Positions 7,128 through 34,618 of a DNA stretch of 34,918 nt are shown here, piece by piece; within the stretch, counting starts at the first letter, position 1; each line of letters starts with the position of its first letter. The DNA lies in contig JAQVCB010000021.1 of NCBI GenBank assembly GCA_028689995.1, forward strand, positions 1 to 34,918. Reading direction: 5' to 3'. Origin of the DNA: Candidatus Gastranaerophilales bacterium. Lineage in GTDB: Bacteria > Cyanobacteriota > Vampirovibrionia > Gastranaerophilales > UBA9579. The notes under the pieces were generated by a model that saw nothing but the letters and a program-made list of their open reading frames with translations, was not told the origin of the DNA and ran no database searches. The position numbers were made by a program, and so were the translations under genes.

Positions 7128-8108
7128 TTATACAAGCCCCAGCAACAAAGATTCCAAAACAATTTGGGGGGTTATGTAATGATTTAGCTGAGTTTTAGCA
7201 TTTTCAATTTTTTTTATATAATCCATAAATCTTAACGAAAACACACGATTATTAGCATTACTCTCAAGCAGCGTTTTAAAATATTCCTGCAAAAAATCTA
7301 AAATATCTTCTGTGCTTAAATATTCCTGCTTTGAAATTTCAATCAGCTTTTCAGAAATAAAGAAAGCCTGTGAATAATCTCTAGGAGGAAAAAACTCAGA
7401 AATTTGATTAAATACGTCAAAATTTATATTGGATTGTTTTATTGATTTTACTGGTAATATCTGGCATCTTGAAACAATAGTTTCAATGATATCTTCTTTA
7501 TCTTTTGTCAGAAAAAAGAAAAGCACTCTTTCTTCAGGTTCTTCTATTGTTTTAAGTAATGAATTTAACGTTGCTGGATTAAATGTTTCTTGTTTTATCG
7601 GCATAGGAAGCCAAAATGGTCGTTCATTATCTGAACTATTTTCTGTTGATACAGGAGGAACCAACAAATTTTCATATTCTTTTCTAAATCGTTCTGCTTT
7701 CTTTTCGTATGATTTATCTTCAACTGCATCTGTAAAAATAATTACTCTGTAATATTGAGAAGAAGTTGATAAAGCTTCTTTTAAATATCTGGCCTGATTG
7801 ACAGATATTACTGTGGATGATTTGGAATCTTTATTACCGTACGTATAATCAATCGGCGAAATTGTTATAACAGCAGGATGACTGTTTCTGTTTATCCAGA
7901 GACAATTTGTACATGTGCAATTTCCAGTATGAGAAATACCATTTTGGCAGTTTAAGATTTTTGCAATCTGCATTGCTGCAAAGTACTGCGCCATCTCATC
8001 CGAGCCTGTAAACATATATGAATGATGCATTTTTGAAGTACCGCTGAGAGCTGCTTCAAAAAATTGTGTCAAAATTGGCTGAGTTAATCTAAATTTCTCA
8101 CTGAACAT
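7128..8108 (-). CDS. holB: DNA polymerase III delta' subunit-like protein
   Basis: Delta' is the stator of the clamp loader that places the sliding clamp on DNA. The protein has an AAA+-like N-terminus, a zinc-binding cysteine group (C54, C64, C66, C69 around NCTCTNCLW), and the region NSLLKTIEEPEERVLFFF...IVSRCQ with the SRC motif of clamp-loader subunits. The P-loop is degenerate (FTGSDEMAQ, no GKT), as expected for delta', which does not hydrolyse ATP. The stretch between about residues 110 and 165 (AVEDKSYEKKAERFRKEYEN) looks like a charged insertion. The start ATG 8108 is 9 bases downstream of the holA stop, so the two clamp-loader genes form one unit. Confidence 0.82.
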   Translation of the reverse strand: MFSEKFRLTQPILTQFFEAALSGTSKMHHSYMFTGSDEMAQYFAAMQIAKILNCQNGISHTGNCTCTNCLWINRNSHPAVITISPIDYTYGNKDSKSSTVISVNQARYLKEALSTSSQYYRVIIFTDAVEDKSYEKKAERFRKEYENLLVPPVSTENSSDNERPFWLPMPIKQETFNPATLNSLLKTIEEPEERVLFFFLTKDKEDIIETIVSRCQILPVKSIKQSNINFDVFNQISEFFPPRDYSQAFFISEKLIEISKQEYLSTEDILDFLQEYFKTLLESNANNRVFSLRFMDYIKKIENAKTQLNHYITPQIVLESLLLGLV

Positions 8109-8117
8109 ATTATTCCT

Positions 8118-9092
8118 CTATGATGAAATTACAAGATCAAGAGCCATTTCTGCCTCCAGTTTTCCTGCTTTAATACTAAATTCCGCATTTGAAAGTTTTT
8201 TTTTGAACTCTACGAGCATCTCAATTGAGGTTGACTGCAATTTTTCCATATCTTTTTCTACAACAAATTTATGTAAATTAACAATTCTGGAAATTTCATA
8301 AGAATTTTTTGTTTGAGATTCAATCTTGATCTTCATCCACCTTCTCAACAATGTCTGCAGTGTTGCAATAATTTTAAGAGGATGATCCTTCTCATATAGT
8401 TTATGTAATTCAATAACAGCTCTGGATTTCTTATTCTGAAGCCAATACTCAGCCAGAACAAAAATATTTTCATATGTAGAACAAAGAGAAATTACCGCTT
8501 CTTTAGTGATAGTTGTTTTAGGCGCTGCATTTAATTTTAATTTTTCAAGCTCTGTATCAAGTTTTCTCAGTTCAGGGCCGGTGTTTTGAAGCAAAACCAA
8601 AGCAGGCTCTTTATTTATTTTTATACCTTTTGATTCCGCACATTTACTGATCCATTCAATGAGATCCTTTTCCTGATAAGATTTAAAAGCTTCAAAGGCT
8701 TTAATCTCACCGATTTTTTGAATTAGTTTAGTTATTTTCAGAGAAGAATCAACTTTCTTACCGCTTTCTCTTTGAATCCGACTAATAAATAATACGTGAA
8801 TATTGGAATTAAGAGTTTCCACTAGACTCATTAACTTGTCATACTGGCTGTCTGTTGCAAAACTTTTTTTTCCGCCTCTGGAAAACAAACTTGATGTTCT
8901 AATTTCTATTAAAAGATTCCCGAAAACCATAGGTATACTCTGAAGAGATTCAATTAATTCTTTTATATCAGGTTCATCCAAAATTTTATGATTGAGCAAT
9001 ACCCATTCAGGATCAAGAATTTGATCCTTTAAATGTTTTACAGCTTTTTCCAGAGTAAAATCTTCTTCACCCCAATATAAATATGCCGGCAT
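8118..9092 (-). CDS. holA: DNA polymerase III delta subunit
   Basis: Delta is the clamp-opening wrench of the clamp loader. The N-terminus PAYLYWGEEDFTLEKAVKHLKDQIL matches the usual opening of HolA, in which a degenerate GxD/E-F region replaces the P-loop. The middle contains FISRIQRESGKKVDSSLKITKLI and the C-terminal collar helices include LIATLQ-type sequence (KIIATLQTLLRRWMKIK). At 324 residues it has the normal length. It is first in a two-gene operon with holB, an arrangement that keeps both non-ATPase clamp-loader subunits together. Confidence 0.85.
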   Translation of the reverse strand: MPAYLYWGEEDFTLEKAVKHLKDQILDPEWVLLNHKILDEPDIKELIESLQSIPMVFGNLLIEIRTSSLFSRGGKKSFATDSQYDKLMSLVETLNSNIHVLFISRIQRESGKKVDSSLKITKLIQKIGEIKAFEAFKSYQEKDLIEWISKCAESKGIKINKEPALVLLQNTGPELRKLDTELEKLKLNAAPKTTITKEAVISLCSTYENIFVLAEYWLQNKKSRAVIELHKLYEKDHPLKIIATLQTLLRRWMKIKIESQTKNSYEISRIVNLHKFVVEKDMEKLQSTSIEMLVEFKKKLSNAEFSIKAGKLEAEMALDLVISS

Positions 9093-17652: not shown

Positions 17653-18156
17653 ATGGAAAACAATATTAGAGGAAAAATATGGAAATATGGTGACAATATA
17701 GATACAGATGTCATTATACCAGCTAGATACTTAACTATGACCGATCCGAATGATCTGGCAAAACATTGTATGGAGGATATAGATAAAAATTTTGCAGCTA
17801 ATGTATCTAAAAATGATATTATTGTTGCAGGTGAAAATTTCGGCTGCGGCAGTTCGAGAGAACATGCACCTATTGCAATTAAAGAATGCGGAATATCAGC
17901 AGTTATAGCAAAAAGCTTTGCACGAATTTTTTACAGAAATGCAATTAATATTGGGCTTCCGATACTTGAAAATATCGATGCAGCAAATGATGCAGAATGC
18001 GGAGATATAATAGAAATCGATCTTTCAAAAGGTGAAATAAAAAATATTACAAAGAATAAATCATATCAAACAACACCATTTCCAGAATCAATCCAAAAGA
18101 TCATCAAATCCGGCGGTTTAATTGAATATACGAAAGCCAGAATATCACATAAATAA
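17653..18156 (+). CDS. leuD: 3-isopropylmalate dehydratase small subunit
   Basis: LeuD with LeuC isomerises 2- to 3-isopropylmalate in leucine synthesis. The swivelling-domain signatures are present: [15 protein letters not shown] and [18 protein letters not shown]. At 167 residues it is the short form seen in archaea and many anaerobes rather than the ~200-residue enterobacterial form. CAGGAG lies 7 bases before the ATG. leuB follows after 18 bases; leuC is not in the window. Confidence 0.92.
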
Positions 18157-18174
18157 AAAGGTTAATGATTTACT

Positions 18175-19257
18175 ATGAAAACAAATTTTAATATAGCTGT
18201 ACTGCCTGGCGACGGCATAGGTCCCGAAGTCATAGATCAGGGGATTAAAGTTCTAAAAGCAGTATCAAAAAAATATGGATTAACTTTTAATTTTATACAT
18301 GGACTTATTGGAGGAGCTGAACTGGAAAATTCAGGTATACCAATAACAGACGAAACAATCAGAATATGTAAAAGTGCTGATGCAGTTTATCTGGGAGCAG
18401 TTGGCGATTTTAAATACGATAAACTGGAACCACATTTAAGACCGGAACAGGCTCTGCTAAAAATTAGAAAAGAACTCAATCTTTTTGCCAATCTTAGACC
18501 GGCTGTTGTTTATGATGATCTACTTAACTCCTCAACTCTAAAAGAAGAAATAATCAAAGGCGTTGATATAATGATTGTAAGAGAACTTACAGGCGGTTTA
18601 TACTTCGGCCAGCCAAGAGGTATTGAATCAAACACCGAAAAAAAAGCATTCAATACAATGACCTACACAGAATCCGAAATAGAAAGAATAGCAAAAGTTG
18701 CTTTTGAAGTAGCAATGAAAAGAAATAAAAGACTTTGCTCTGTTGATAAAGCCAATGTACTGGAAGTTTCCAGACTTTGGAGAGAAGTAGTTGAAAGGGT
18801 TGCTAAGAATTATCCTGATGTAGAATTATCTCACATGTATGTAGACAATGCGGCAATGCAGCTCATTAGAAACCCGAGAGATTTTGATGTAATGCTCACA
18901 GAAAATATGTTTGGCGACATTCTTTCTGATGAGGCTTCTATGCTTACAGGCTCTCTCGGCATGCTAGCCAGTGCAAGCCTTTCTCAAAAGGGTCCATCTA
19001 TGTATGAACCTTCTCATGGAAGTGCTCCACAGTTTAAAGGACTTGATAAACTTAATCCAATTGCAACTATCCTGTCTGCAGGCATGATGTTAAAATACAG
19101 TTTTATGTTTGAAGAAGCAGCAACAGCGATAGAAACTTCAGTTAAACAGGTATTAAGAGAAGGATACAGAACAGAAGACATATTTAACGAGGGTAATAAA
19201 TTAGTTGGTACATCCAATATGGGTAGTTTAATAGCTGAAGCACTTTTGAATTCATAG
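18175..19257 (+). CDS. leuB: 3-isopropylmalate dehydrogenase
   Basis: LeuB oxidatively decarboxylates 3-isopropylmalate with NAD+. The opening [13 protein letters not shown], the substrate segment [14 protein letters not shown] and the metal/NAD signature [26 protein letters not shown] are all present, and the length of 360 residues is standard. The Leu-type reading over isocitrate or tartrate dehydrogenase is supported by [18 protein letters not shown] and by the leuD neighbour. It ends the two-gene leuDB unit; a structured RNA-like region follows. Confidence 0.95.
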
Positions 19258-20517: not shown

Positions 20518-20556
20518 CGATAATGATTATGTAATTAACCTGTGATTAGGAAAAAT

Positions 20557-21531
20557 ATGGAAATTAATTTCAGAAATATAAATCTGAATAACGCAAGTAT
20601 AAAGAATGTGACTAACAAATCAGATTCTAACCTTGAAAGTTTTAATTCTAAAGATCATCCTGCTATTGCCAATGGAAACATTCCCACTCCTAAACATTCA
20701 ACAATCAATGTGCAATTTAACAGCCTTACAAGAATTGAGCAATCAGTTTTAATAAGGGAATTATTAAATCTTCCTAAAGAAATAAAAGAGTTACTAGAAC
20801 TGCTGACTAACAATAATGGCAATAATAAAACCTTGACTAAACTGATCAATGATATAAACCAGTTAGTTATGTTTTCTGATATCCAAAAAGTTCTGAACAC
20901 TAATGCAAAAGACCTAATAAATAAACTCTTAAAACTAATTCAGCCAACACCCGGTAATATTCAAAATATAGACCAGCTAAAGGAAATTATCGGTATTATA
21001 CAAACAATGATTCCATCTGCTAATATGCCCAATAATGAAATACTCAAGAACATTATCCTGCTATATTTACCATGGTTACCGTTAATACAACCTCAGGAAA
21101 TATCAATTGAGTACGAAAAGAAAAAAAATTCAGAAGAAAAAGACGAAGATATTTCCTTGATAATCTACATAACAACAGAAAATATAGGAAGATTAAAAGG
21201 ATTTATCAGTTTAAATTCAGATAATAAACTAAATATTCAAATCGAAAGCTTAAACTACGATGAAAGTATTAAAGAATATCTTGAAATTATTCATAAAAGA
21301 GTAGAAGAAGAAATTAATTCAAATAAAATTCCTGCAAAGACTGAAATTATTAGTTATAAATCAAAAGAATTAAAAAAATCAGAAAGGAGAGAAATAGCAT
21401 TACAACCAGTTTCTGGTATTTCACCAAAAATATTGATGGCAGCTTACTTAGTTACAAGAGTGGTATTTGAGTTAGATGAAAACATTTCCCTTAATAAGAA
21501 ACGGGAAAAGATGATTCAGGAAAAAAGCTAA
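20557..21531 (+). CDS. FliK-like hook-length-control type protein (tentative)
   Basis: The protein has a low-complexity Asn/Ser-rich N-terminal half, a helical middle (EIKELLELLTNNNGNNKTL) and a C-terminal region (SLIIYITTENIGRLKGFISLNSDNKLNIQIESLN) with the alternating strand pattern of the FliK C-terminal domain. This pattern and the position just before rod genes suggest a flagellar secreted regulator, but similarity is weak. The track starts at GTG 20542; ATG 20557 with AGGA 5 bases upstream is the better start (324 residues). A second, clearer FliK-like gene lies at 32950, so the window would hold two such proteins with different roles. Confidence 0.5.
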   Translation: MEINFRNINLNNASIKNVTNKSDSNLESFNSKDHPAIANGNIPTPKHSTINVQFNSLTRIEQSVLIRELLNLPKEIKELLELLTNNNGNNKTLTKLINDINQLVMFSDIQKVLNTNAKDLINKLLKLIQPTPGNIQNIDQLKEIIGIIQTMIPSANMPNNEILKNIILLYLPWLPLIQPQEISIEYEKKKNSEEKDEDISLIIYITTENIGRLKGFISLNSDNKLNIQIESLNYDESIKEYLEIIHKRVEEEINSNKIPAKTEIISYKSKELKKSERREIALQPVSGISPKILMAAYLVTRVVFELDENISLNKKREKMIQEKS

Positions 21532-21955: not shown

Positions 21956-22654
21956 ATGAAGATTTTTGGTGGCTTATACTATTCTGAAGATGGATTGAGT
22001 TCCTCACTAAGAGGTATGAACCTTCAAGCAGGGGTTATGAATAGCATAGGTAATAACATAAACGGCTTTAACAAAGTAGGTTATCAAAGAAAAGTACCTG
22101 TAGTCTCCTCCTTTTCAGAATTAATTGGAATACATGCATTATCAGAAGTTGCTGATACTAAAGCAGGGAGAATATCAAGATCAGACAAACCACTTGATTT
22201 CGCTCTTGTAAAAGAAGGTTATTTCCAATACCAGACTCCAGAGGGTATTAAACTAACCAGAGACGGTCGATTCAAAATGGATAAAGCTGGTAACCTCTTA
22301 ACTTTGGAAAACCAAAAAGTACTATCAATAAACGGACAGCCAATAAAATTCAAAACAATTCCTGAAAGTATGGATCAAATTAAAGTCGACAAAGAAGGAA
22401 AAATGTCTGTTTACAACAGTAAAACAAATAAACTTGAATATATGAATCAGCTTTCAGTTGTATCAAATAAAGGTAAATATTTATCAGATATTTACGTGCG
22501 GCAGGGATATGTTGAGAACTCAAATGTTAGCCTGCATTCAGAGTTTATGAGCATGCTCCCCGTCAGAAGGAACTTTGAAGCTAACAGACAGATGTACATA
22601 ATCCAAAACGACGAATTAAGCAGGGTTATTCAAGAATTAGGTCGCTCAACATAA
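21956..22654 (+). CDS. Flagellar rod protein, FlgF/FlgG family
   Basis: This is an axial rod subunit exported through the flagellar type III apparatus. The N-terminal region SLRGMNLQAGVMNSIGNNINGFNKVGYQRK is the flagellar basal-body rod signature, the middle DFALVKEGYFQYQTPEGIKLTRDGRFKMDKAGNLLT is the FlgF/G/E domain, and the end (GYVENSNVSLHSEFMSMLPVRRNFEANRQM) is the C-terminal helix that packs in the axial core. At 232 residues it is nearer to FlgF than FlgG. AGGAG precedes ATG 21956. It opens the rod operon and is followed 18 bases later by a paralogue. Which is proximal and which distal rod cannot be fixed here. Confidence 0.85.
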   Translation: MKIFGGLYYSEDGLSSSLRGMNLQAGVMNSIGNNINGFNKVGYQRKVPVVSSFSELIGIHALSEVADTKAGRISRSDKPLDFALVKEGYFQYQTPEGIKLTRDGRFKMDKAGNLLTLENQKVLSINGQPIKFKTIPESMDQIKVDKEGKMSVYNSKTNKLEYMNQLSVVSNKGKYLSDIYVRQGYVENSNVSLHSEFMSMLPVRRNFEANRQMYIIQNDELSRVIQELGRST

Positions 22655-22672: not shown

Positions 22673-23383
22673 ATGAATCCACAGGGACTAATTTCAAAAT
22701 CGGTAAATAACGTAAATACAATGTTTGATTCACTTGGATACATTACGACTAATGTTTCAAACTACAACACTGCCGGCTATAAAGCACAAAGATTCGAATG
22801 TTACATGAAAGAATTCGGGCTTCTTGAAGGAACAGTCAGGACAAATTATTCACAGGGAGATTTATTAAATACTGATAATCAGTTTGATATTGGTATTCAG
22901 GGTGTCGGTTTTATCCCTGTAACTAAAAAAGACGGGTCAACAGCATACACAAGAGATGGATCTTTCGGTGTAAATAAAGACGGGTACCTTGTAACAAAAG
23001 ATGGATCTCTCGTAGGTGACGGTATAAAAATACCTGCAAATTATGAAAAAATTAAAATTTCAACTGACGGAACAGTAAACATTATTTCAAGCACGTCTTC
23101 TGAACCGGAGAAAGTCGGAAAGATTCCTTTGGTTACATTTAATAATCCTGAAGAATTAAAATCTGTAGAAGGAGATTGCATGGTTCCGACTGAGAAAACC
23201 GGTAAACCGTTGTTACTTTCTGATCACAGTAGTATTAAACAAGGTTGTATAGAAAGATCCAACGTAAATATGTATGACACAGTCAATGAAGTCTTAAGAC
23301 TCAATGGAAGCTTAATTTCCAGCACAAGGCTTATAAAAGCAGTAGATGAAATGTACAGGCAATCAATAAATTTACGTCAATAA
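22673..23383 (+). CDS. Flagellar rod protein, FlgF/FlgG family (second copy)
   Basis: This paralogue of the preceding gene has the rod N-terminus (VNTMFDSLGYITTNVSNYNTAGYKAQRF), the central FlgG-type domain (GIQGVGFIPVTKKDGSTAYTRDGSFGVNKDGYLVTKDG) and the C-terminal helix (ERSNVNMYDTVNEVLRLNGSLISSTRLIKAVDEM). The 236 residues are slightly short for FlgG (~260). Tandem rod genes are usual. Paired with the gene upstream it should build the flagellar rod; the assignment between FlgF and FlgG remains open. Confidence 0.85.
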   Translation: MNPQGLISKSVNNVNTMFDSLGYITTNVSNYNTAGYKAQRFECYMKEFGLLEGTVRTNYSQGDLLNTDNQFDIGIQGVGFIPVTKKDGSTAYTRDGSFGVNKDGYLVTKDGSLVGDGIKIPANYEKIKISTDGTVNIISSTSSEPEKVGKIPLVTFNNPEELKSVEGDCMVPTEKTGKPLLLSDHSSIKQGCIERSNVNMYDTVNEVLRLNGSLISSTRLIKAVDEMYRQSINLRQ

Positions 23384-23411: not shown

Positions 23412-23759
23412 ATGAGTTTCAATTCACACAATTCAATAGATAAAACAAAATTAATACTGGATGTCATTACCAAAAGGCAGGAAGCTATCGGTGCAAATAT
23501 AACCAACGTAAACACACCGGGATACGTCAGGCAGGATGTAAATTTTGAACAATACATTGGTAGTCTTAATTCACCATTAGAAACAACTTTGTCCAAAAAA
23601 ATAGGACCGTCACCAATGATGAAAACTGAAGGCGGCGAAGTTAATCCCGCACAGGAATTGATTTTGATGCAAAAAAACGCATTATTTTATACTTTGGCAA
23701 CTAGAAGAATAACGGCCGCAATACAAGAATTAAAAACAATCGCACAGTTAGGAAGGTAA
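23412..23759 (+). CDS. flgB: Flagellar basal-body rod protein FlgB
   Basis: FlgB is a proximal rod subunit joining the MS ring to the rod. The protein shows RQEAIGANITNVNTPGYVRQDVNFEQYI, the standard rod signature, and a C-terminal helix (LILMQKNALFYTLATRRITAAIQELKTI) typical of FlgB, where L/MxxNxxxY is conserved. The 115 residues are normal. GGTG stands just before the ATG. flgC follows after 4 bases, the usual flgB-flgC order. Confidence 0.93.
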   Translation: MSFNSHNSIDKTKLILDVITKRQEAIGANITNVNTPGYVRQDVNFEQYIGSLNSPLETTLSKKIGPSPMMKTEGGEVNPAQELILMQKNALFYTLATRRITAAIQELKTIAQLGR

Positions 23760-23763
23760 GTTT

Positions 23764-24207
23764 ATGGGATTATTAGACGCTATTAACGTAGGTTCATCAG
23801 GATTATTTGCACATGGCAAGAGATTGGAAATTCACGCCAGGAATATAGCAAATACTGATACCCCTAATTATCAGAGAAAAATACCTGTACTGATGGCTAC
23901 AGAAGACATCTCCTTTCATGGGGTACTGACAAACATGAAGGATAATGTATTTGCTTCAGGCACACTTCCTCATAAGACAGGCGGAGTCAATTTCACAGGA
24001 ATAATTGTCGACTCTACTCCCGGTGATCTTGTATATTCTCCTGGTCATCCTGATGCAGACAGAAATGGTTATATTAGAAGATCAAATGTTAACCCTATGA
24101 TAGATATAGCAGATGCTACAATGACATCCAGAGCATATGAAGCAAGTTTAGCATTAGTGGGTGTTACAAAAGCAATGGCGCAAAGGGCAGCAGAAATAGG
24201 TAAATAA
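23764..24207 (+). CDS. flgC: Flagellar basal-body rod protein FlgC
   Basis: FlgC is a proximal rod protein. It has the N-terminal rod signature (SGLFAHGKRLEIHARNIANTDTPNYQRK), the PGHPDADRNGYIRRSNVNPMIDIADATMTSRAYEASL stretch that is diagnostic for FlgC, and a C-terminal amphipathic helix. At 147 residues it is full length. It is placed between flgB and the lytic transglycosylase gene. Confidence 0.95.
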   Translation: MGLLDAINVGSSGLFAHGKRLEIHARNIANTDTPNYQRKIPVLMATEDISFHGVLTNMKDNVFASGTLPHKTGGVNFTGIIVDSTPGDLVYSPGHPDADRNGYIRRSNVNPMIDIADATMTSRAYEASLALVGVTKAMAQRAAEIGK

Positions 24208-24239: not shown

Positions 24240-24860
24240 ATGTTCAGTGATTCAATACAAAGCTTAATAAACGGAAGTAATGCTAAATCGGCTACGGAAA
24301 GAGCATCGCAAATAGAAAGTATGATGGCAAAATATGGCAATAATACTGCTACCATTAACCAAATACCTTCAAACACTGCAAAATTACCCACTGTTAATAT
24401 TCCATCTCAATTTTCCGAATATTTAAAAGTCAAACCATCATCAAATGCTAAATTCAACGTACTACCACCGCTTGAAGTATCAAAAGGTTTCATAGAAAAT
24501 GCAGTTAAAAAAATGGCTGCAAAATATAAAGTTGATGAAAAATTAGTAATGGCAGTAATTAAACAGGAATCAAACTTTAATCCTAATGCAATATCATCAG
24601 CAGGGGCTCAGGGATTAATGCAATTAATGCCTGCCACTGCAAAAGGACTGGGAGTTTTAAACCCATTTGACCCTGAACAAAATATTGAAGGCGGAGTAAA
24701 ACATTTAAAGGGACTGATGAACAAGTATCGAGGAAACCTCGTACTTGCTCTTGCTGCTTACAACGCAGGCGGAGGAAATGTTGATAAATTCGGGGGAGTT
24801 CCTCCATTCGGTGAAACGCAAAATTATGTAAAACATATACTTTCCAATTATCTAAGTTAG
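24240..24860 (+). CDS. Flagellar lytic transglycosylase (SLT family)
   Basis: This peptidoglycan-cleaving enzyme probably opens the wall for the growing rod, the role FlgJ's muramidase domain plays elsewhere. The first ~80 residues are polar and carry no signal peptide, as expected for a protein exported through the flagellar system. The SLT domain starts near residue 84 with catalytic E110 in IKQESNFNP, then AQGLMQLMPATA and the LALAAYNAGGGNVDKFGG motif. Its place between flgC and fliE supports the flagellar role. Whether it also caps the rod as FlgJ does cannot be told. Confidence 0.85.
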   Translation: MFSDSIQSLINGSNAKSATERASQIESMMAKYGNNTATINQIPSNTAKLPTVNIPSQFSEYLKVKPSSNAKFNVLPPLEVSKGFIENAVKKMAAKYKVDEKLVMAVIKQESNFNPNAISSAGAQGLMQLMPATAKGLGVLNPFDPEQNIEGGVKHLKGLMNKYRGNLVLALAAYNAGGGNVDKFGGVPPFGETQNYVKHILSNYLS

Positions 24861-24874
24861 AACAGGAGGACAAT

Positions 24875-25207
24875 ATGCAACAAGGGTTTACACCACGAAT
24901 TCAATTAAATGCAGGTATTTCAGATACAAAGCTTAACATATTCGATCAACCAATGAGAATGGATAGCATAAAAGAAGTTAATGCGACTCCTGGATTTAAC
25001 GATGTAATGACAGGTCTTATAAAGAATCTTGATACAACAGTTAAAGCTCCTGATCAGGTACTACAGAATGCAATGGTAGGAAATAATGCCGATGTTCATG
25101 ATGTAATGATAGCTATATCAAAAGCGGAAATAGGAATAAACCTTGCTACTCAAGTCACTACAAAAGTAGTCCAGGCGTATGAGAAAGTTATGTCAATTCA
25201 GGTATAA
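24875..25207 (+). CDS. fliE: Flagellar hook-basal body protein FliE
   Basis: FliE joins the MS ring to the rod and is among the first exported substrates. The C-terminal half, HDVMIAISKAEIGINLATQVTTKVVQAYEKVMSIQV, matches the highly conserved FliE end. At 110 residues it is normal. AGGAGG lies just before the ATG and the gene follows the transglycosylase after 14 bases. Downstream is a 145-base gap to fliF, which holds an odd reading frame (see findings). Confidence 0.93.
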   Translation: MQQGFTPRIQLNAGISDTKLNIFDQPMRMDSIKEVNATPGFNDVMTGLIKNLDTTVKAPDQVLQNAMVGNNADVHDVMIAISKAEIGINLATQVTTKVVQAYEKVMSIQV

Positions 25208-25352: not shown

Positions 25353-26963
25353 ATGAATTTTAGTCAGCTTTCACAAAACAAACCATTATTATTCGGATTA
25401 ATCGGCGGAGCTATATTAATTATAGTTCTAATAGTAGTTCTATCATTTTCAGGAAAAAAAGAAGCAACTCCCGGAAGTCAAATAATTAAAGATAATGTAG
25501 ACCTACTTACAACTGATAATATTGGTAAAGCACTTGAAATTCAATCATTACTTGCAAGAGAAGGAATTGAAGTTGACAGAATTGCAGATGGTTCAAAAAA
25601 TAAATTAATTCTAAAAAAAGAAAACCGTATAACAATGAATGAGCGAGACAGATCTCTACTTATCGTAGTTAAAAGCGGAATCATGGACAAAAATATAGGT
25701 CTCGAAATCTTCGACAAAGGTGATTTTACATCGTCAAAAGAAGATAAAAGAATCAGACTCGCAAGAGCCATCAACGGTGAATTATCCAGATTAATCAGAA
25801 AGATCCCTCCAATTGAAGATGCTTCTGTATTTGTTTCTATACCGGAACAAACAATTTTTACCGCAATGAAAAAACCGACAACTGCTACTGTTCAGGTTAC
25901 CATACCAAGCGGCGACAAACTCGAAAGGGATAAAGTAAGAACAATTTCAAATCTGCTTCTTGGAAGTGTTCAGAGTCTGGAAGCTACAAATATTTCAATT
26001 ACTGATACAAATGGAAATGTATATAACAGTATTATGAAAGTTCAAGACGATACAATGAATGCTCTTCAGGAAAACGACCAGTATATGAAAAATAAAGTCA
26101 TGGTTCAGTTAGACAGACTGCTTGGCAAAGGCAATTATGTTGTCACTGTAAGCACATACCTAAGAGAAACTCCTCAGGAGATTAATAAATTAATATATAA
26201 CCCAAAAACTAGTGCTATAGTTAGCAAACAGAATTTTACAGAATCACTTGGCGATCAATCAAGAGATAAAAGTAAATTATCATCAGCAGTTAGCTCATAT
26301 TTGCCGGCGGGAGTTTCACAGGGGCCGGATTCTTCATCAAACAGAAACTACTCGCGAAATGCAGAAGAATATCAGTATGGTGTCGGAAAAACTCAAATTT
26401 TAGAAGAAAAACGCCCGGGCATGATTGAAGAAATTTCTATTGCTGTCACACTCGATCGTGGAGCAATGCCTTCCAGTACAGATTTACAACAATTAAAAAA
26501 TTTAATAGCCGGAGCCGCAAGTCCAAAAGCATCTGCAAATAACGTAGAGATTGCTTTTGCTGACATGACAAATCCTTATTTATCTTCAGAAAGACCCGAG
26601 CAATTACCAAAACCTGAAGAAAGCGGAAACCCATGGTGGACAGTGCTTGTATTGTTTGGAATTCTTCTTATTGCAGGTCTTGCATTTATAGCAAATAAGA
26701 CAAAAGAAACTTCAAGTAAACAGCAGATAGAAATAGAAGAACTAATGCAAAGAACAAAAATGCAGCAAAATCAAATTAAAGATACACAGGAACAAGCTTC
26801 ATTGCTGCAAAATCAACTTCATAATTCTATAACAGCCGATAAAGCACAACAGGCAATACCTACATTACATCAAACTATTGATGACATAAGAAAAAATATA
26901 GAAGATGATGTAAATGAAGAAGAAATTTCTACTCAACTTAAAAATTGGATAGAAAGCAATTAA
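25353..26963 (+). CDS. fliF: Flagellar M-ring protein FliF
   Basis: FliF forms the MS ring in the inner membrane. Transmembrane segments lie at about residues 12-32 (LLFGLIGGAILIIVLIVVLSF) and 428-447 (WWTVLVLFGILLIAGLAFIA). Between them are two ring-building domains, with RLARAINGELSRLIRKIPPIEDASVFVSIPE typical of FliF. After the second segment comes a Q/E-rich coiled coil and an acidic C-terminus (NIEDDVNEEEISTQLKNWIE) of the kind that binds FliG. At 536 residues it is complete. The ATG comes directly after the TAA of a short upstream frame. Confidence 0.95.
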   Translation: MNFSQLSQNKPLLFGLIGGAILIIVLIVVLSFSGKKEATPGSQIIKDNVDLLTTDNIGKALEIQSLLAREGIEVDRIADGSKNKLILKKENRITMNERDRSLLIVVKSGIMDKNIGLEIFDKGDFTSSKEDKRIRLARAINGELSRLIRKIPPIEDASVFVSIPEQTIFTAMKKPTTATVQVTIPSGDKLERDKVRTISNLLLGSVQSLEATNISITDTNGNVYNSIMKVQDDTMNALQENDQYMKNKVMVQLDRLLGKGNYVVTVSTYLRETPQEINKLIYNPKTSAIVSKQNFTESLGDQSRDKSKLSSAVSSYLPAGVSQGPDSSSNRNYSRNAEEYQYGVGKTQILEEKRPGMIEEISIAVTLDRGAMPSSTDLQQLKNLIAGAASPKASANNVEIAFADMTNPYLSSERPEQLPKPEESGNPWWTVLVLFGILLIAGLAFIANKTKETSSKQQIEIEELMQRTKMQQNQIKDTQEQASLLQNQLHNSITADKAQQAIPTLHQTIDDIRKNIEDDVNEEEISTQLKNWIESN

Positions 26964-26978
26964 CGCTAAGAGAATATT

Positions 26979-27923
26979 ATGACTATACCTGATTTTAAAC
27001 CAGAAGATTTTTCGCAAGATCTCGCAAGACAAGCTCAACAGCTTGTCCCTTCTGATTTAACTGAATATCAAAAAAAATATGTTGTAAACAAGCTTTATCA
27101 ATTCTGCATTTTAGCCGGTAATGCTTTAAATCAAGATACTAATCTTGTATTTACTAACAATGAAGCACAAGCGATTGTTCAATTAATTGGCGAATGGACA
27201 TTTCATAAAAATGTCGACCTGATCAGAGCTAAAATAGCTGAAGATTGTTGGGATCCAGTTTTACAACAAGTTGCATTTGCAGTTTTTGAAACAGCAAAAC
27301 AAGTCGAATCGAAAAAAGTAGAGACCAATCAGGCTATAAAAATGATTGAGGATGTTGTTAAGGAATCATACAACAAATCATTAATGGAACTGGCAAGGAA
27401 CGGGAAAATTAATGAAAATGAAATACCGGAAATATTGTCTTATTCAAATATTGATTCAATGGCAACTGAATCACAACAAGAAATAACGCCGGATATAGAA
27501 AATAAATTATTAAAATGTGCTTCATTAGCGCTAGTTTTAAAGTCTATGCCCCAAAATAAAGTAAATCGAATTCTTGCTGGATTTGATAAACAAACAGCAT
27601 TACAAATATCACATTTAATTCAAACTCCTGACCTGGAGAATCAAATAGATTTGAATTCTGCAAATAACATTTTATTTGGATTCAAACAAACATTTTCCGC
27701 TCAAGATATTTCACAGCAATCAAGTTCAGTTGATAAAATATCTACACTGAGAGATTTATACGATGAACATTCGATTATTAAACATGTACAGTATGAACGT
27801 CCACTTATTCAACAGTATGTTCAAAATAACATAACCCAAAAAACAGCAAAAATAGAAATAAATATGTCATCTTACATAGAAAATATAGTGTATAACTATT
27901 TAGTTTCAAAATTAACAGCATAA
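26979..27923 (+). CDS. FliG-position protein with a FliG-N-like segment
   Basis: This gene sits exactly where fliG is expected, between fliF and fliH, but is not a normal FliG. Residues ~174-235 (LLKCASLALVLKSMPQNKVNRILAGFDKQTALQISHLIQ...NILFGFK) look like the FliG N-terminal domain that binds FliF. The FliG hallmarks EHPQ and the charged torque helix of FliG-C are not seen. The first ~170 residues (QYQKKYVVNKLYQFCILAGNAL...) are helical and unfamiliar. It may be a highly divergent switch protein, or an accessory FliF-binding factor while a true FliG is encoded elsewhere. The coding sequence is intact at 314 residues. Confidence 0.6.
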   Translation: MTIPDFKPEDFSQDLARQAQQLVPSDLTEYQKKYVVNKLYQFCILAGNALNQDTNLVFTNNEAQAIVQLIGEWTFHKNVDLIRAKIAEDCWDPVLQQVAFAVFETAKQVESKKVETNQAIKMIEDVVKESYNKSLMELARNGKINENEIPEILSYSNIDSMATESQQEITPDIENKLLKCASLALVLKSMPQNKVNRILAGFDKQTALQISHLIQTPDLENQIDLNSANNILFGFKQTFSAQDISQQSSSVDKISTLRDLYDEHSIIKHVQYERPLIQQYVQNNITQKTAKIEINMSSYIENIVYNYLVSKLTA

Positions 27924-28703: not shown

Positions 28704-30812
28704 TTGGCCAGAGGTCAGGCTGCATTACCACCAATGAGTGAAGTAGTTCTTGGCATATTTGTTTTAGGACTCATCACTATCCTTATTGTTGAACTTCCTG
28801 CGTTTATTATTGACTTTTGCATAAGCTTAAATATCACCATAGGGATAGTTTTGCTTATGATTTCACTATATGTACAAAGACCACTGGAGCTTGCCGTTTT
28901 TCCTTCAATAATTCTCGTTGGAACTTTGTTCCGACTCTGTTTGAGTATTTCAGCTACAAGGCTTATTCTGGCTAAAGGAGAAGGTGGAGATGTAATTGAT
29001 GCATTTGGAAACTTCGTAACGGGCGGCAACCTGGTAGTTGGATGTGTAATATTTTTGATTATTACTATTGTGCAATTTCTGGTTATTACAAAGGGTGCAG
29101 AACGTATTGCTGAAGTTGCTGCAAGATTTGCCCTCGATGCTATGCCCGGAAAACAAATGACCATAGATGCCGATTTTAACGCAGGTCTGATTTCGCCTGA
29201 AGAAGCAATAAAAAAACGTGAAGACCTTCAAAGAGAATCCAGCCTGTTTGGTTCTATGGATGGTGCGATGAAATTTGTAAAAGGGGACACAATTGCAGGT
29301 ATAATTATTGTTATTATTAATATATTAGGCGGTTTAGCTATTGGAATGCTGCAAATGGGTCTTCCTTTCCCGGATGCTGTTAATATATTTACAAAATTAA
29401 CAATTGGTGAAGGATTAACTGCACAGCTACCTTCACTTTTAATGGCTATTTCCAGCGGTATTATTATGACAAGATCCACATCCTCAAGCTCCAGCCTTGC
29501 AAAAGATCTTTCAGCTCAGATAATGAGTAAACCCTACAGTCTTATATTTGCAGCTGCATTTCTGCTATTAATAACCTTCACATGTTTTATAACAGGTTTA
29601 CCCTGGTACTATTTTTTAGCTTTTACAATTATTTTATCCATCACAGCATTTACCGTATTTGTTTCAAGCGATGTCCAACAACAGTTAGGACAACTGGAAA
29701 ATGTAAAACAAAATATGCAGGATCTCGTTAATCCTAATAGAATGTATGAAAGACTGGGTGTCGACATTTTGGGTTTACAAGTGGGAACAAATCTGTTAGT
29801 AATTGCCGATCCTGAACAAGAAGGTCAACTTCTAGCCAAAGTAGCAGCACTTCGCCAAAGAATGACAGATGAACTTGGATATATTATTCCAAACATAAGA
29901 ATCATGGACAGTACAGCACTTGAACCTTTTGAATATTTAATTTCTATACGTAATAACTCTGTAGCAAAAGGGACTGTTTATCCAGATAGGCTCATGATAA
30001 TTGCAGATCAATGGGATTCAGCAGGATTAACCGTACCGAATGATGTAATTGTCGGAATTGATCCTACTTATTCAACACAAGCTTACTGGATAAAACCGGA
30101 TCAATTGAATAAAAACGCAAAAATAACGGCTGTTGATGCAACAGACGTTGTAGTAACACATTTACAGGAATGTGTACGCAAATATGTTGATGAAGTATTA
30201 ACTAAAACCGACGTACTAAAACTCATGGAACTTGTCAAAAGCCAGGATCCCACTCTTGTTAACGACCTTGTACCGGCAATTATCTCTACCAGTGACCTTC
30301 GCAAAATATTCGTAAATTTGATCAGAGAAAAAGTTTCAATAAAAGATATAATATTTATATTTGAAAGATTATGTGATTATGCAAGATTTTCTAAAGAGCC
30401 TGATATACTGTCAGAGAGACTACGTGCCTCATTAGGAAGACAAATTTGCATTAGTAATGCAACAGAAGACAAAATTTTATATGCTATCACTCTTTCTTCC
30501 ACTTGGGAAAAAACTCTTGATGATTCCTGTCAGAGAACTGAGCTTGGCACAATGTTCCTGCTTAATCCGCTTCAGGTGCAGGAACTTATTGAATCATCTG
30601 CATCAACATTAATGCGTGCACATCAGGCAATAGGTAATCAGCCGGTTATTTTATGTTCTCCAAGAATAAGACTTCCTCTTTACCAATTACTTGAAAGACA
30701 TATTCCAACAGTTGTTGTTGTTTCCTATAGCGAACTTATAACAGACATAAAAGTAGAAGCAATTGACACTATCGGTGATAATGAATTTTCTGATGATTAT
30801 GCCTTTAGCTAA
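28704..30812 (+). CDS. flhA: Flagellar export gate protein FlhA
   Basis: FlhA is the large export-gate membrane protein. The first ~330 residues hold eight probable membrane helices, with the FHIPEP-family stretch RFALDAMPGKQMTIDADFNAGLISPEEAIKKREDLQRESSLFGSMDGAMKFVKGD at about residues 142-195. The cytosolic part continues to residue 702, with the DRLMIIADQW and CVRKYVDEVLT regions. The length is typical. Translation starts at TTG 28704, with a perfect AAGGAGG 7 bases upstream. fliI follows after 33-45 bases. Confidence 0.96.
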   Translation: MARGQAALPPMSEVVLGIFVLGLITILIVELPAFIIDFCISLNITIGIVLLMISLYVQRPLELAVFPSIILVGTLFRLCLSISATRLILAKGEGGDVIDAFGNFVTGGNLVVGCVIFLIITIVQFLVITKGAERIAEVAARFALDAMPGKQMTIDADFNAGLISPEEAIKKREDLQRESSLFGSMDGAMKFVKGDTIAGIIIVIINILGGLAIGMLQMGLPFPDAVNIFTKLTIGEGLTAQLPSLLMAISSGIIMTRSTSSSSSLAKDLSAQIMSKPYSLIFAAAFLLLITFTCFITGLPWYYFLAFTIILSITAFTVFVSSDVQQQLGQLENVKQNMQDLVNPNRMYERLGVDILGLQVGTNLLVIADPEQEGQLLAKVAALRQRMTDELGYIIPNIRIMDSTALEPFEYLISIRNNSVAKGTVYPDRLMIIADQWDSAGLTVPNDVIVGIDPTYSTQAYWIKPDQLNKNAKITAVDATDVVVTHLQECVRKYVDEVLTKTDVLKLMELVKSQDPTLVNDLVPAIISTSDLRKIFVNLIREKVSIKDIIFIFERLCDYARFSKEPDILSERLRASLGRQICISNATEDKILYAITLSSTWEKTLDDSCQRTELGTMFLLNPLQVQELIESSASTLMRAHQAIGNQPVILCSPRIRLPLYQLLERHIPTVVVVSYSELITDIKVEAIDTIGDNEFSDDYAFS

Positions 30813-30857
30813 TCTCAAGAAAATTAAACCTGAATTAGAATAAATTTGGAACTGGAT

Positions 30858-32207
30858 ATGATTGATCAAAATAAAGATAAATCAATAGAATACGTTAAAA
30901 ACAAAACCCTTGAAATTTTAAATAATACAGAAATTTACAAATATAAAGGGACAGTATCAAAGCTGCTCGGATTAACAGTGGAAGCAAAATTACCCGGACT
31001 TAAAATTGGTGATTTATGTTTTATTGAGACTCAAAAAGGAGAACCGAAAGCCGCTGAAGTAGTTGCATTCAAAGGTAATGTCGCCCAGATGCTTTTATTA
31101 TATGATGGTGCAGGTATTGGTCAAGGAAGCTGGGTAACCTCAACAGGATCCGCAATCACAGTACCTGTTGGAGATTTTCTTCTGGGTCGATTAATAAGTC
31201 CCTTGGGAGAACCACTTGATGGACAGCCTCTTGATACTTCTAATGCAAAATTTATCTCAGTTGAAGGCAATCCCCCAGATGCATTTACAAGACCAATTAT
31301 TAAAGACAAGTTTTCTACCGGAGTAAGGGCTATTGATTCACTTCTTACGTTCGGAGCAGGACAGCGTATGGGACTTTTTGCAGGCAGTGGTGTCGGAAAA
31401 AGCACAATGCTCGGAATGATAGCAAGAAATAGTGACGCTGATGTCAATGTAATGGCTCTAATAGGAGAACGTGGACGAGAAGTTAAAGAATTTATTGAAA
31501 ACAGTCTTGGTCCTATCGGTATGGCAAAATCAGTCCTTGTATGTTCTACAGGTGACCAACCTCCGCTTATCAGAATGAAAGCTCTCCAAACAGCAACCGC
31601 TATTTGTGAATATTTCAGAAATCAGGGCAAAAAAGTATTCCTGATGACAGATACTGTAACAAGATGTGCTATGGCAGGAAGAGAAGTTGGTCTTTCCATC
31701 GGAGAACCACCTACAATGAAAGGTTACCCTCCATCCATATTCTCATGGTTACAAAGAGTGCTTGAACGAACAGGAACTAGCCCCAAAGGCTCTATAACAG
31801 CTCTCTATACTGTGCTTATGGAAGGTGAAGACGTTAATGACCCAGTAGTAGATACTGTAAGAGGTATTGTTGACGGGCACGTGTTCTTATCCCGTAAAGT
31901 TGCAGAAATGAACCATTACCCTGCTATCGACGTATTGGGTAGCATAAGCAGGCTGTTTCCAGAAGTTACAGATCAGGAACATCAGTCTTCAGCCGCTAAG
32001 ATGCGAACAATCCTAGCTATATACAGAGAAAACAAGGATTTAATTGACGTTGGAATGTACCAAAAGGGTTCTAATCAAAAGTTAGATTTGGCAATTGATT
32101 TAATGCCCGATATAAACAAATTTTTAAGACAATCAATCAAAGATAGTGTCAATATGCATCACACCATTGATACTTTAAAAAGCATGATGGCAAATGTGGA
32201 TATTTAA
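30858..32207 (+). CDS. fliI: Flagellar export ATPase FliI
   Basis: FliI powers and organises substrate delivery to the flagellar export gate; it is related to F1 ATPase beta. The Walker A motif is GLFAGSGVGKST, Walker B is VFLMTDTVTRCAMAGREVGL, and the export-ATPase signature GEPPTMKGYPPSIFSWLQRVLERTG is complete. The ORF track starts at TTG 30846; ATG 30858, with GGA 7 bases upstream, gives 449 residues and is my preferred start, though the TTG cannot be excluded. A promoter and repeat region follow before fliJ. Confidence 0.94.
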   Translation: MIDQNKDKSIEYVKNKTLEILNNTEIYKYKGTVSKLLGLTVEAKLPGLKIGDLCFIETQKGEPKAAEVVAFKGNVAQMLLLYDGAGIGQGSWVTSTGSAITVPVGDFLLGRLISPLGEPLDGQPLDTSNAKFISVEGNPPDAFTRPIIKDKFSTGVRAIDSLLTFGAGQRMGLFAGSGVGKSTMLGMIARNSDADVNVMALIGERGREVKEFIENSLGPIGMAKSVLVCSTGDQPPLIRMKALQTATAICEYFRNQGKKVFLMTDTVTRCAMAGREVGLSIGEPPTMKGYPPSIFSWLQRVLERTGTSPKGSITALYTVLMEGEDVNDPVVDTVRGIVDGHVFLSRKVAEMNHYPAIDVLGSISRLFPEVTDQEHQSSAAKMRTILAIYRENKDLIDVGMYQKGSNQKLDLAIDLMPDINKFLRQSIKDSVNMHHTIDTLKSMMANVDI

Positions 32208-32480: not shown

Positions 32481-32960
32481 ATGCCTTTTGTTTATAGATT
32501 ACAAAAGATATTAAATTTCAGAATTCAGAAAAAAGACGAACAAATTGAATTTGTAAAAAGAGCTGAAAGAGAAGTACAGAGAATACAGAATGATATCAAT
32601 AATAATAAAAACACAGTTTCAGTTTTGAGAAAAAGTATGCATTCAGCTCCTCACATAATGATGGAAAATTATGATCAATTCATTAAACATTTGTACGACA
32701 TCATAGACAAACTGGAAGAAGAGAAACTGGAAGCAATAGAAAAATTAAACGAAGAAAAAGCAAAATTAGTCGAACTGGAAAAAGCAGTTAAAGTACTGGA
32801 AAAACACAAAGAAAAAGCCTCCGCTGAGTATAAAGACGAAGAAAACAAAATAGAAATGAAAAGACTGGATGAAGTAGCAGGACTCAAACATTATGCAAAG
32901 ACACAGGAATCAATACTTGAAGAAATTGAAGCTGAAGGACTTAACCTGAATGAATATTGA
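32481..32960 (+). CDS. fliJ: Flagellar export protein FliJ
   Basis: FliJ is the coiled-coil stalk of the export ATPase, similar to the gamma subunit of F1. The N-terminus FVYRLQKILNFRIQKKDEQ matches the family, and almost the whole protein is a charged two-helix coiled coil (ELEKAVKVLEKHKEKASAEYKDEENKIEMKRLDE). At 159 residues it is the expected size. It stands after fliI, behind its own promoter, and overlaps the next gene by 11 bases. Confidence 0.88.
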   Translation: MPFVYRLQKILNFRIQKKDEQIEFVKRAEREVQRIQNDINNNKNTVSVLRKSMHSAPHIMMENYDQFIKHLYDIIDKLEEEKLEAIEKLNEEKAKLVELEKAVKVLEKHKEKASAEYKDEENKIEMKRLDEVAGLKHYAKTQESILEEIEAEGLNLNEY

Positions 32961-33792
32961 ACAAATACAGATAACGGACAAACAAACTACTGATGGAAAT
33001 ACTGCTAATAATGAAGCGATTACTAATAATGCTAATATTGCGCCTAAAAGTGCTCAATCATTAGCATTTAAGTTGGAAATGCCTAACAATAAATCATTTA
33101 TAGATTTTTTAAGTTTGGGATTAGAAGATTTACAGGATGTTGAACAATTAGGTAATCCTGAACAATCAATTTCATTAGGCAAAATAAATAAATTAAATCC
33201 AACTTTAATCAAAAATCTTCAGGCTTTTGCTATGAAAAATAATATACCTCTAAGAATAAAGGATATTAATGATGCCAGATTGCTGGTATATTCTCAAAAT
33301 CTGTTTAATAACGGCAAAGAACCCGGCATAAAAATTAATGATATTGAAAAAAGTGATATTGATTTCTTAAAAAAATGTGCAGACAATCCAAATATTTTCA
33401 TAAATTCGATAAATCCTCAAAATATGTCGGTAAATTATACACTGAACAACAATAACAATATTGAAGGGCAACTCAAATCAGAAGAAGTGTCTTACAAAAG
33501 TCTTAATATTTCAAAAAGCCTTGTAAATCTCATAGATTATGCTTCTAAGACACAAAAACCTGTAAGACTTGATTTTGAAGGAAACTCGACAGTAATTCTA
33601 AAAGTTGATAAAGAAGGAAAACTGACAGCAGAGTTTATTTCCAGTGATAGGGCAATGGAAAGTCTCCTTAAGAATAGTATTCCACAACTTAGGAATAAAA
33701 TGGACAACGAAGGAATCCCTTACAAGAATATTTCCTATAAAGAACAATCTCAAAAAAATAATTCACAACAGGAGGAAAAATCCTATGAATGA
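32950..33792 (+). CDS. fliK: Flagellar hook-length control protein FliK (probable)
   Basis: FliK measures hook length and switches export specificity. The first ~190 residues are polar and Asn-rich, as is common. The C-terminal part (TQKPVRLDFEGNSTVILKVDKEGKLTAEFISSDRAMESLLKNSIPQLRNKMDNEGI) has the form of the conserved FliK C-terminal domain, and the Gln-rich tail fits too. The gene begins inside the last codons of fliJ and its end overlaps the next gene by 8 bases. Position after fliJ is standard for fliK. Confidence 0.75.
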   Translation: MNIEQIQITDKQTTDGNTANNEAITNNANIAPKSAQSLAFKLEMPNNKSFIDFLSLGLEDLQDVEQLGNPEQSISLGKINKLNPTLIKNLQAFAMKNNIPLRIKDINDARLLVYSQNLFNNGKEPGIKINDIEKSDIDFLKKCADNPNIFINSINPQNMSVNYTLNNNNNIEGQLKSEEVSYKSLNISKSLVNLIDYASKTQKPVRLDFEGNSTVILKVDKEGKLTAEFISSDRAMESLLKNSIPQLRNKMDNEGIPYKNISYKEQSQKNNSQQEEKSYE

Positions 33793-34618
33793 TTCATTTA
33801 TAACAGCAACAAACAGCCAAAAAACCACTCTGGACTACATATCAATGTTAATACAAAATTCAACAAACCTTTATACTCCTGGATATAAGGAAGTAAAGGG
33901 TAATTTTAAAACCTGCCTTGACGGAATCAGCCTGGATGAAATGGATGTAAATATGGGACAGGGTAAATCAACACCAGGATTAGCTCCAGAGAATTTATTT
34001 ATTGAAGGAAAAGGTTTTTTTACACTAAAAAGACCTGATGGCAAAATAGTTTATGCAAGACTAGGTGATTTTAAGTTTGATGGAGAAGGCAATTACAAAA
34101 CAAAGTCAGGATGCGCTGTACAGGGATACATCCTGAACGATAACGGCGAAATAATGTCAAATCCTGCAACACAAAAGGCTGATCCACATTCTGCCACAAA
34201 CGCTGAAGGCGGACCAGCGATGATGGCAACAACAGATATAAAATTGTGGGTTGATCCATCTAATGGAAAATATCTTGGTAAATATGACGAATTTGAATTT
34301 AAAAATAACGGAATTTTATATGGAAAAGCAGATAAAGGAAAAACTGTAGTTCCTTTATATAAAGTGGCATTAACAGCTTTTACAAATCCTGCAGGGTTGA
34401 TGCAGATAGCTGATGGAAATTACATTGAAAATGCCGCTTCCGGCAAACCTGTAATGGCAAAAGCAGAAATAAGAAGCGGGCTGCTTGAGTCATCAAATGT
34501 TAGCTTTAAAACTACAGTAAACTATTTACAACAAGCCAAACTTCAACTTGATGTAATAAACAAATTAATCCAAACAAATAAACAACTTCTTGATGAAGCA
34601 ACAAAATTGATGCAGTAA
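33785..34618 (+). CDS. Flagellar hook/rod family protein (FlgE/F/G type)
   Basis: This is an axial flagellar component. The N-terminus (TTLDYISMLIQNSTNLYTPGYKEVKGNF) is a rod-type helix with the TPGY motif. The centre (LFIEGKGFFTLKRPDGKIVYARLGDFKFDGEGNYKTKSG) is the FlgE/F/G domain. The C-terminus (GLLESSNVSFKTTVNYLQQAKLQLDVINKLIQTNKQLLDEATKLMQ) is the axial helix. The ORF track starts at 33644, but ATG 33785 has GGAGG 9 bases before it and lies at the true rod N-terminus, giving 277 residues. It overlaps fliK by 8 bases. Whether it is hook or a third rod protein is open; it is short for a FlgE hook. Confidence 0.8.
   Translation: MNDSFITATNSQKTTLDYISMLIQNSTNLYTPGYKEVKGNFKTCLDGISLDEMDVNMGQGKSTPGLAPENLFIEGKGFFTLKRPDGKIVYARLGDFKFDGEGNYKTKSGCAVQGYILNDNGEIMSNPATQKADPHSATNAEGGPAMMATTDIKLWVDPSNGKYLGKYDEFEFKNNGILYGKADKGKTVVPLYKVALTAFTNPAGLMQIADGNYIENAASGKPVMAKAEIRSGLLESSNVSFKTTVNYLQQAKLQLDVINKLIQTNKQLLDEATKLMQ

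Follow-up and report, generated by a model that had tools for sequence, protein, structure and literature searches.

Genes in the window

The window, i.e., the whole stretch of DNA analysed here (34,918 nucleotides; contig JAQVCB010000021.1 of assembly GCA_028689995.1, Candidatus Gastranaerophilales bacterium), contains a series of flagellar-type genes in the order rod genes, SLT, fliE, fliF2, X, fliH2, flhA2, fliI2, fliJ2, fliK2 and flgE2. X is the central open reading frame of this analysis and is flanked upstream by fliF2 and downstream by fliH2, which is a FliG-type gene slot. These genes are referred to below as part of system 2 and are listed here, with the basis of each assignment in parentheses.

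21956-22654, + strand: flgF-like rod protein (domain scan and related loci)
22673-23383, + strand: flgG-like rod protein (domain scan and related loci)
23412-23759, + strand: flgB2, rod (domain scan and related loci)
23764-24207, + strand: flgC2, rod (domain scan and related loci)
24240-24860, + strand: lytic transglycosylase, SLT (domain scan and synteny)
24875-25207, + strand: fliE2 (domain scans and synteny)
25353-26963, + strand: fliF2, MS-ring protein of system 2 (domain scans)
26979-27923, + strand: X, putative adaptor protein in the FliG slot, 314 residues
27939-28637, + strand: fliH2 (domain scan and synteny)
28704-30812, + strand: flhA2, gate protein of the export apparatus, with about 75% identity throughout the order (domain scans, synteny and tree)
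30846-32207, + strand: fliI2, export ATPase (model scores)
32481-32960, + strand: fliJ2 (domain scans)
32950-33792, + strand: fliK2-like (Pfam score just below cut-off)
33644-34618, + strand: flgE/F/G-like hook or rod protein, possibly flgE2 (domain scans)

The true start of the flgE2-like gene is probably downstream of 33644, given that its homologues align from residue 48. Upstream of flgF2, here and in related loci, lies a gene for a 329-residue protein with no Pfam match (20542-21531), possibly a second FliK-like hook-length protein. Also upstream of system 2 are an aconitase C-terminal-domain gene and an isocitrate/isopropylmalate dehydrogenase gene (17653-19257); genes of these two types are likewise found upstream of system 2 in two genomes of family f7 (L052 and L053).

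Conservation of X

As a single query, X gave no Pfam match over the cut-off and none in NCBIfam or among PDB sequences, and PADLOC returned no match. The initial annotation, made from the sequence alone, held that the fliG slot is filled by a non-standard protein, and this is borne out by the position of X between fliF and fliH and by the lack of a confident family match. X has a match in 94 of the 97 genomes of the order Gastranaerophilales that were sampled, and its position is syntenic; thus, it is no chance open reading frame. The reading frames are unbroken in nearly all of these genomes. One genome counted among the 94 (G044) carries only a paralogue of the N-terminal domain, and FliF2 is also absent from it. 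Across 80 named loci, X is accompanied by fliF2 and/or fliH2 in nearly all cases, the two commonest gene orders being SLT-fliE-fliF2-X-fliH2-flhA2 (35/80) and the same order without SLT (20/80).

Homologues of X occupy the same slot in other families of Vampirovibrionia, where the front half is different and mainly the C-terminal half is conserved. The shortest of these (L164:1486-1878; 130 residues) comprises the FliG-like half alone, with its E-R-P motif. Because the front half varies outside the order and is missing from this homologue, the FliG_N/M-like half is taken to be the core of X.

FliG likeness of the C-terminal half

The AlphaFold model of X is all-helical (mean pLDDT 88), with breaks near residues 170 and 245. 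The following segments are distinguished.

26979-27488, + strand: X-N, residues 1-170, new all-helical N-terminal domain, also found in separate paralogues and in fusions with FlhA cytosolic domains
27492-27713, + strand: FliG_N-like segment, residues 172-245, candidate binder of the FliF2 tail (structure and profile comparison)
27726-27920, + strand: shortened FliG_M-like segment, residues 250-314, candidate contact with a SPOA protein (structure and profile comparison)
27795-27803, + strand: E-R-P, residues 273-275, at the alignment position of the EHPQ-type motif in FliG_M, with E and R invariant among family members

A FliG_N-like segment had been placed at residues 174-235; structure and profile comparisons back it and put its boundaries at about 172-245. 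FliG_C is absent, as had been noted: X stops at residue 314 after the FliG_M-like part, a domain scan of X found no such domain, and the genome's only PF01706 match lies in another gene, on contig C149. The EHPQ motif had also been described as missing. This holds for EHPQ as such, but an invariant E-R (usually E-R-P) at residues 273-275 aligns with ENPQ, the EHPQ-type motif in this genome's own FliG.

A Foldseek search of the PDB with the full model returned designed and unrelated helical bundles only, which is uninformative since the N-terminal bundle dominates; the C-terminal half was therefore folded apart. Residues 172-314 modelled alone (pLDDT 84) gave 23 PDB matches, of which ranks 1-8 are all FliG and ten are FliG in all, with E-values of 0.5-9 each. 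They include 4qrm, the FliG middle domain with FliM, and a match to 5wuj_B, the FliG N domain with FliF, was obtained at E 9.3. FliG accounts for about 16 of 177,635 distinct PDB sequences, so this enrichment is not due to chance. Furthermore, comparing the profile of the C-terminal half with that of the order's own FliG gave a score of 27.5, which exceeds all of 100 column-shuffled decoys (maximum 20.0) as well as the controls with reversed FliG (12.4) and with the N-terminal domain of X (16.6). The hhalign comparison of X with FliG gave P of about 0.002 and a probability of 13%. Among 38 members of the X family scanned against Pfam, FliG_M was matched in eight (best E 2.8e-4, below the Pfam cut-off) and FliG_N in six (best E 0.0035), while MgtE_N was the most frequent match (19/38). 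A profile search with the C-terminal half against PDB sequences returned weak matches to MgtE and PrgK only (E 0.1-0.4).

The resemblance of residues 172-314 to FliG, seen at the level of sequence profiles and of predicted structure, is well supported overall, with each single test statistically modest and none significant by itself. The likeness could also be one of fold alone, whereby a generic helical-repeat adaptor (SctK-like or MgtE_N-like) was recruited to FliF2 without descent from FliG. The weak individual scores and the prominence of MgtE_N, which is helical and has a similar repeat, are in keeping with such convergence. However, both FliG_N and FliG_M appear among the PDB and Pfam matches, X occupies the slot of fliG, and the tail of FliF2 is still of the FliG-binding type; convergence is on these grounds considered unlikely.

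The N-terminal domain and its relatives

The first half of X had been described as new. It is new relative to FliG, with no signal when X-N and FliG were compared, yet X is not its only carrier: there are several paralogues per genome, and most genomes of family f2 contain additional copies. In several genomes X-N is joined through transmembrane segments to an FlhA cytosolic domain that has no membrane part of FlhA's own (L168:3222-5306, L169:1893-3977, L170:2400-4172, L171:2042-3823). The FlhA parts of these fusions derive from FlhA2 and not from FlhA1 (tree, 100/100), which ties X-N to the export side of system 2. The occurrence of this module on membrane-anchored FlhA cytosolic domains beside two-component systems may point to a coupled sensing or regulatory branch.

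One such locus (L172:841-5588) encodes, in a row, an FlhA-cytosolic-domain protein that begins with its own diverged X-N-like region, a separate X-N protein, a PAS histidine kinase and a LuxR-type response regulator; the fusions at L170 and L171 have similar neighbours (PAS histidine kinase, LuxR-type regulator). Two family f7 genomes carry a tandem truncated X-N copy of 187 residues between fliF2 and X (L052:9843-10406, L053:9492-10055). Elsewhere, an X-N paralogue with C-terminal membrane helices (L058:5621-6607) adjoins two genes encoding delta-type subunits of DNA polymerase III, and the window has homologues of both at 7128-9092.

A second flagellar gene set in the same genome

A whole-genome search with PF01706 located the sole FliG_C of the assembly in a 340-residue FliG on contig C149 (E 1.7e-44). 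This FliG is complete (TIGR00207, 384.9 bits against a cut-off of 226.7); its gene directly follows a further fliF and precedes a further fliH and fliI. Contig C169 encodes FliM and a protein of the FliY/FliN type. A third SPOA protein, of 407 residues, is encoded on contig C94 directly upstream of fliO, fliP, fliQ and fliR (fliO2P2Q2R2), and FliP occurs twice in the genome (C52 and C94). The duplication of fliF and FliP, together with the separate FliG, indicates that two flagellar-type gene sets are present in the genome. Completeness of the assembly is 89% and contamination 6%; a mix-up in the assembly was considered and rejected, as both systems are also seen in relatives assembled into 3-8 contigs at 99% completeness.

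The initial annotation had offered, as one of two options, a split or rebuilt rotor with FliG_C supplied by another gene, and the absence of FliG_C from X would suit a motor in which the two proteins work together. The genome search that it had proposed for FliG-C, FliM and FliN found all of them, with FliG at full length, which is in part what it had named as speaking against its reading. Given that an ordinary full-length FliG lies next to its own fliF, with FliM and FliY/FliN elsewhere, the rotor is neither split nor rebuilt. A split rotor is refuted for this genome, where the only FliG_C is inside a complete protein adjoining another fliF, and more widely it has almost no credibility, as FliG_C is missing from 65 of the 97 genomes, nearly all of which have X.

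Distribution across Gastranaerophilales

FliG is present in 32 of the 97 genomes and FliF1, the strong FliF class, in exactly the same 32; flagellin is found in 34, i.e., the FliG-positive genomes plus two. FliF2, the weak FliF class, is nearly universal, and X and FliF2 persist in about 63 genomes that have neither FliG nor flagellin. FlhB and FliP are each present in 96 of the 97 genomes, usually as one copy where FliG is absent and two copies where it is present. The FliG-less genomes keep fliE2-fliF2-X-fliH2-flhA2, SPOA2-fliO2P2Q2R2, flgF2-flgG2-flgB2-flgC2 and fliJ2-fliK2-flgE2 with flhB2 nearby; in three of them that were examined, fliI2 is not beside fliJ2. Flagellated relatives carry both systems. 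The expectation that FliG, a FliF1-type ring and flagellin occur wherever system 2 does fails, because system 2 is found in nearly all 97 genomes.

These counts bear on the idea that X serves the normal flagellum as an accessory component (e.g., in a second FliF-FliX ring, or as an assembly factor), with the two gene sets building one hybrid machine. The coexistence of both sets in flagellated genomes and the presence of hook- or rod-like genes in both would agree with this. Nevertheless, system 2 remains intact in genomes from which FliG, FliF1 and flagellin are all missing, and a hybrid machine is accordingly regarded as improbable.

Ancestry of the export apparatus

In a maximum-likelihood tree of FlhA, FlhA2 from Gastranaerophilales groups with FlhA2 from three genomes of other Vampirovibrionia families in one clade (100/100), and the flagellar FlhA (FlhA1) of the same order and the SctV references are each separate (100/100). 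All FlhA sequences group together opposite SctV, which places FlhA2 on the flagellar side and outside the SctV clade; some reference branches are long, so that no branching order within the flagellar side is claimed. The mean identity of FlhA2 to the window's protein is 75% over the 80 named loci. The flagellar models of NCBIfam outscore the injectisome models for each of FlhA2, FliI2, FliP2, FliQ2 and FliR2, and only FliP2 passes the flagellar cut-off. FliE, FlgB and FlgC, which have been used as flagellum-specific markers (Abby and Rocha, 2012; PMC3459982), are present in system 2.

A different reading of system 2 is that of a decaying flagellar relic in non-motile gut lineages, with X as a degenerate FliG; partial gene sets in Gastranaerophilales have indeed been taken as evidence of flagellum loss (Soo et al., 2014; PMC4040986). 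Decay is very hard to reconcile with the presence of both systems in flagellated relatives, the separation of FlhA2 and FlhA1 into clades with 100/100 support, and reading frames that are intact in nearly all genomes. Furthermore, the roughly 75% identity of FlhA2 across the order and a gene order kept in dozens of genomes argue against relaxation. Since flagellated relatives carry system 2 in addition to a full flagellum, the flagellar-remnant reading (PMC4040986) should be revisited.

Candidate partners and proposed role of X

In ordinary flagella, the C-terminal helix of FliF is what FliG_N binds (5wuj). The C-terminal region of FliF2 is variable across 26 distinct sequences except for its last few residues, which contain the following motif.

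26937-26954, + strand: LKNWIE motif in the C-terminal tail of FliF2 ([LIV]K[SNT]WIE in 26 of 26 distinct FliF2 tails)

This [LIV]KxWIE end resembles the FliG-binding tail of FliF. The FliF1 of this genome ends in SDPAEAARLLLSYVKD, unlike FliF2, and the differing ends suggest a separate partner for each FliF. For X, the probable target is the tail of the adjacent FliF2; of the two options first put forward, an extra FliF-binding partner is therefore closer than a split rotor. On the other side of X, the SPOA protein encoded on C94 has one confident SPOA domain matching FliN/FliY (P 2e-7), and the stretch upstream of it aligns weakly with the FliM middle and first SPOA region (P 0.0045). It is a plausible counterpart of FliM and FliN combined, or of SctQ. 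By analogy with the FliG_M-FliM contact, the FliG_M-like end of X may contact this protein.

It is likely that X is a FliG-derived adaptor without a torque domain, working in a second flagellar-type export apparatus, one without a motor, which dates back to the ancestor of Vampirovibrionia and operates in parallel with the normal flagellum. In the proposed arrangement, FliF2 would form the inner-membrane ring, with its conserved C-terminal helix (..LKNWIE..) docked in the FliG_N-like domain of X. At its FliG_M-like end, with E-R-P in place of EHPQ, X would hold the two-SPOA protein of C94, which would act in the FliM/FliN or SctQ part and carry FliH2-FliI2 to the FlhA2/FlhB2/FliPQR2 gate. X-N may replace FliG_C in bulk and serve the export side near FlhA. 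X would thus join the FliF2 ring to the sorting platform, performing the job of FliG or SctK without torque in a machine that would not rotate. More broadly, the evidence leans slightly towards a flagellar-type secretion machine that has no motor and has so far gone unrecognised. It would be ancestral and nearly universal in Gastranaerophilales, would occur in other Vampirovibrionia as well, and would have a C-ring built on a torque-less FliG with a new N-terminal module, the same module being reused on FlhA cytosolic domains beside two-component systems.

How the rotary motor and the protein injector arose from a common ancestor is an old question, and X would offer a natural case of a FliG-type adaptor without the torque part, apparently retaining the parts that bind the ring and the platform. 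This export system is kept, without FliG or flagellin, in roughly two thirds of the genomes sampled from an order of gut bacteria. This challenges the view of "flagellar debris" in non-motile Gastranaerophilales and implies that they secrete or build something at their surface.

Comparison with known systems

X and FliG are alike in their slot between fliF and fliH, in the order of a FliG_N-like and then a FliG_M-like part, in the E-R-P found at the EHPQ position and in a probable partner FliF with a conserved C-terminal helix. Unlike FliG, X has no FliG_C and hence no torque site, its FliG_M-like part is shortened, it has an extra N-terminal domain of 170 residues, and it occurs in genomes without FliG or flagellin. 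SctK is the sorting-platform adaptor of injectisomes, where it is paired with SctD and SctQ. The role proposed for X is similar, in that it would link an inner-membrane ring to a SPOA protein carrying SctL/FliH and the ATPase, whereas its ring partner would be FliF and not SctD. No Pfam, NCBIfam or PDB match (sequence or fold) linked X to SctK, a weak negative given that SctK is poorly conserved. Injectisomes also differ from system 2 in having neither FliE nor rod proteins, both of which system 2 has.

Earlier reports of incomplete flagellar gene sets in Gastranaerophilales interpreted them as what is left of a flagellum since lost (Soo et al., 2014, PMC4040986; Utami et al., 2018, PMC5877343). 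Searches of the open-access literature found no description of a second export system in this order. The genes of system 2 are very probably those reported in these incomplete sets; in contrast to the earlier reading, they appear here as a second system that has a separate ancestry and a distinct fliG-slot protein. A further related system is the 'Myxo' type III secretion system, a conserved system without motility parts that is vertically inherited in one order and was earlier taken for a relic (PMC3459982). System 2 shares all of these features, but it lies on the flagellar side by its FlhA and keeps FliE, FlgB, FlgC, FlgF/G-like and FliK-like genes.
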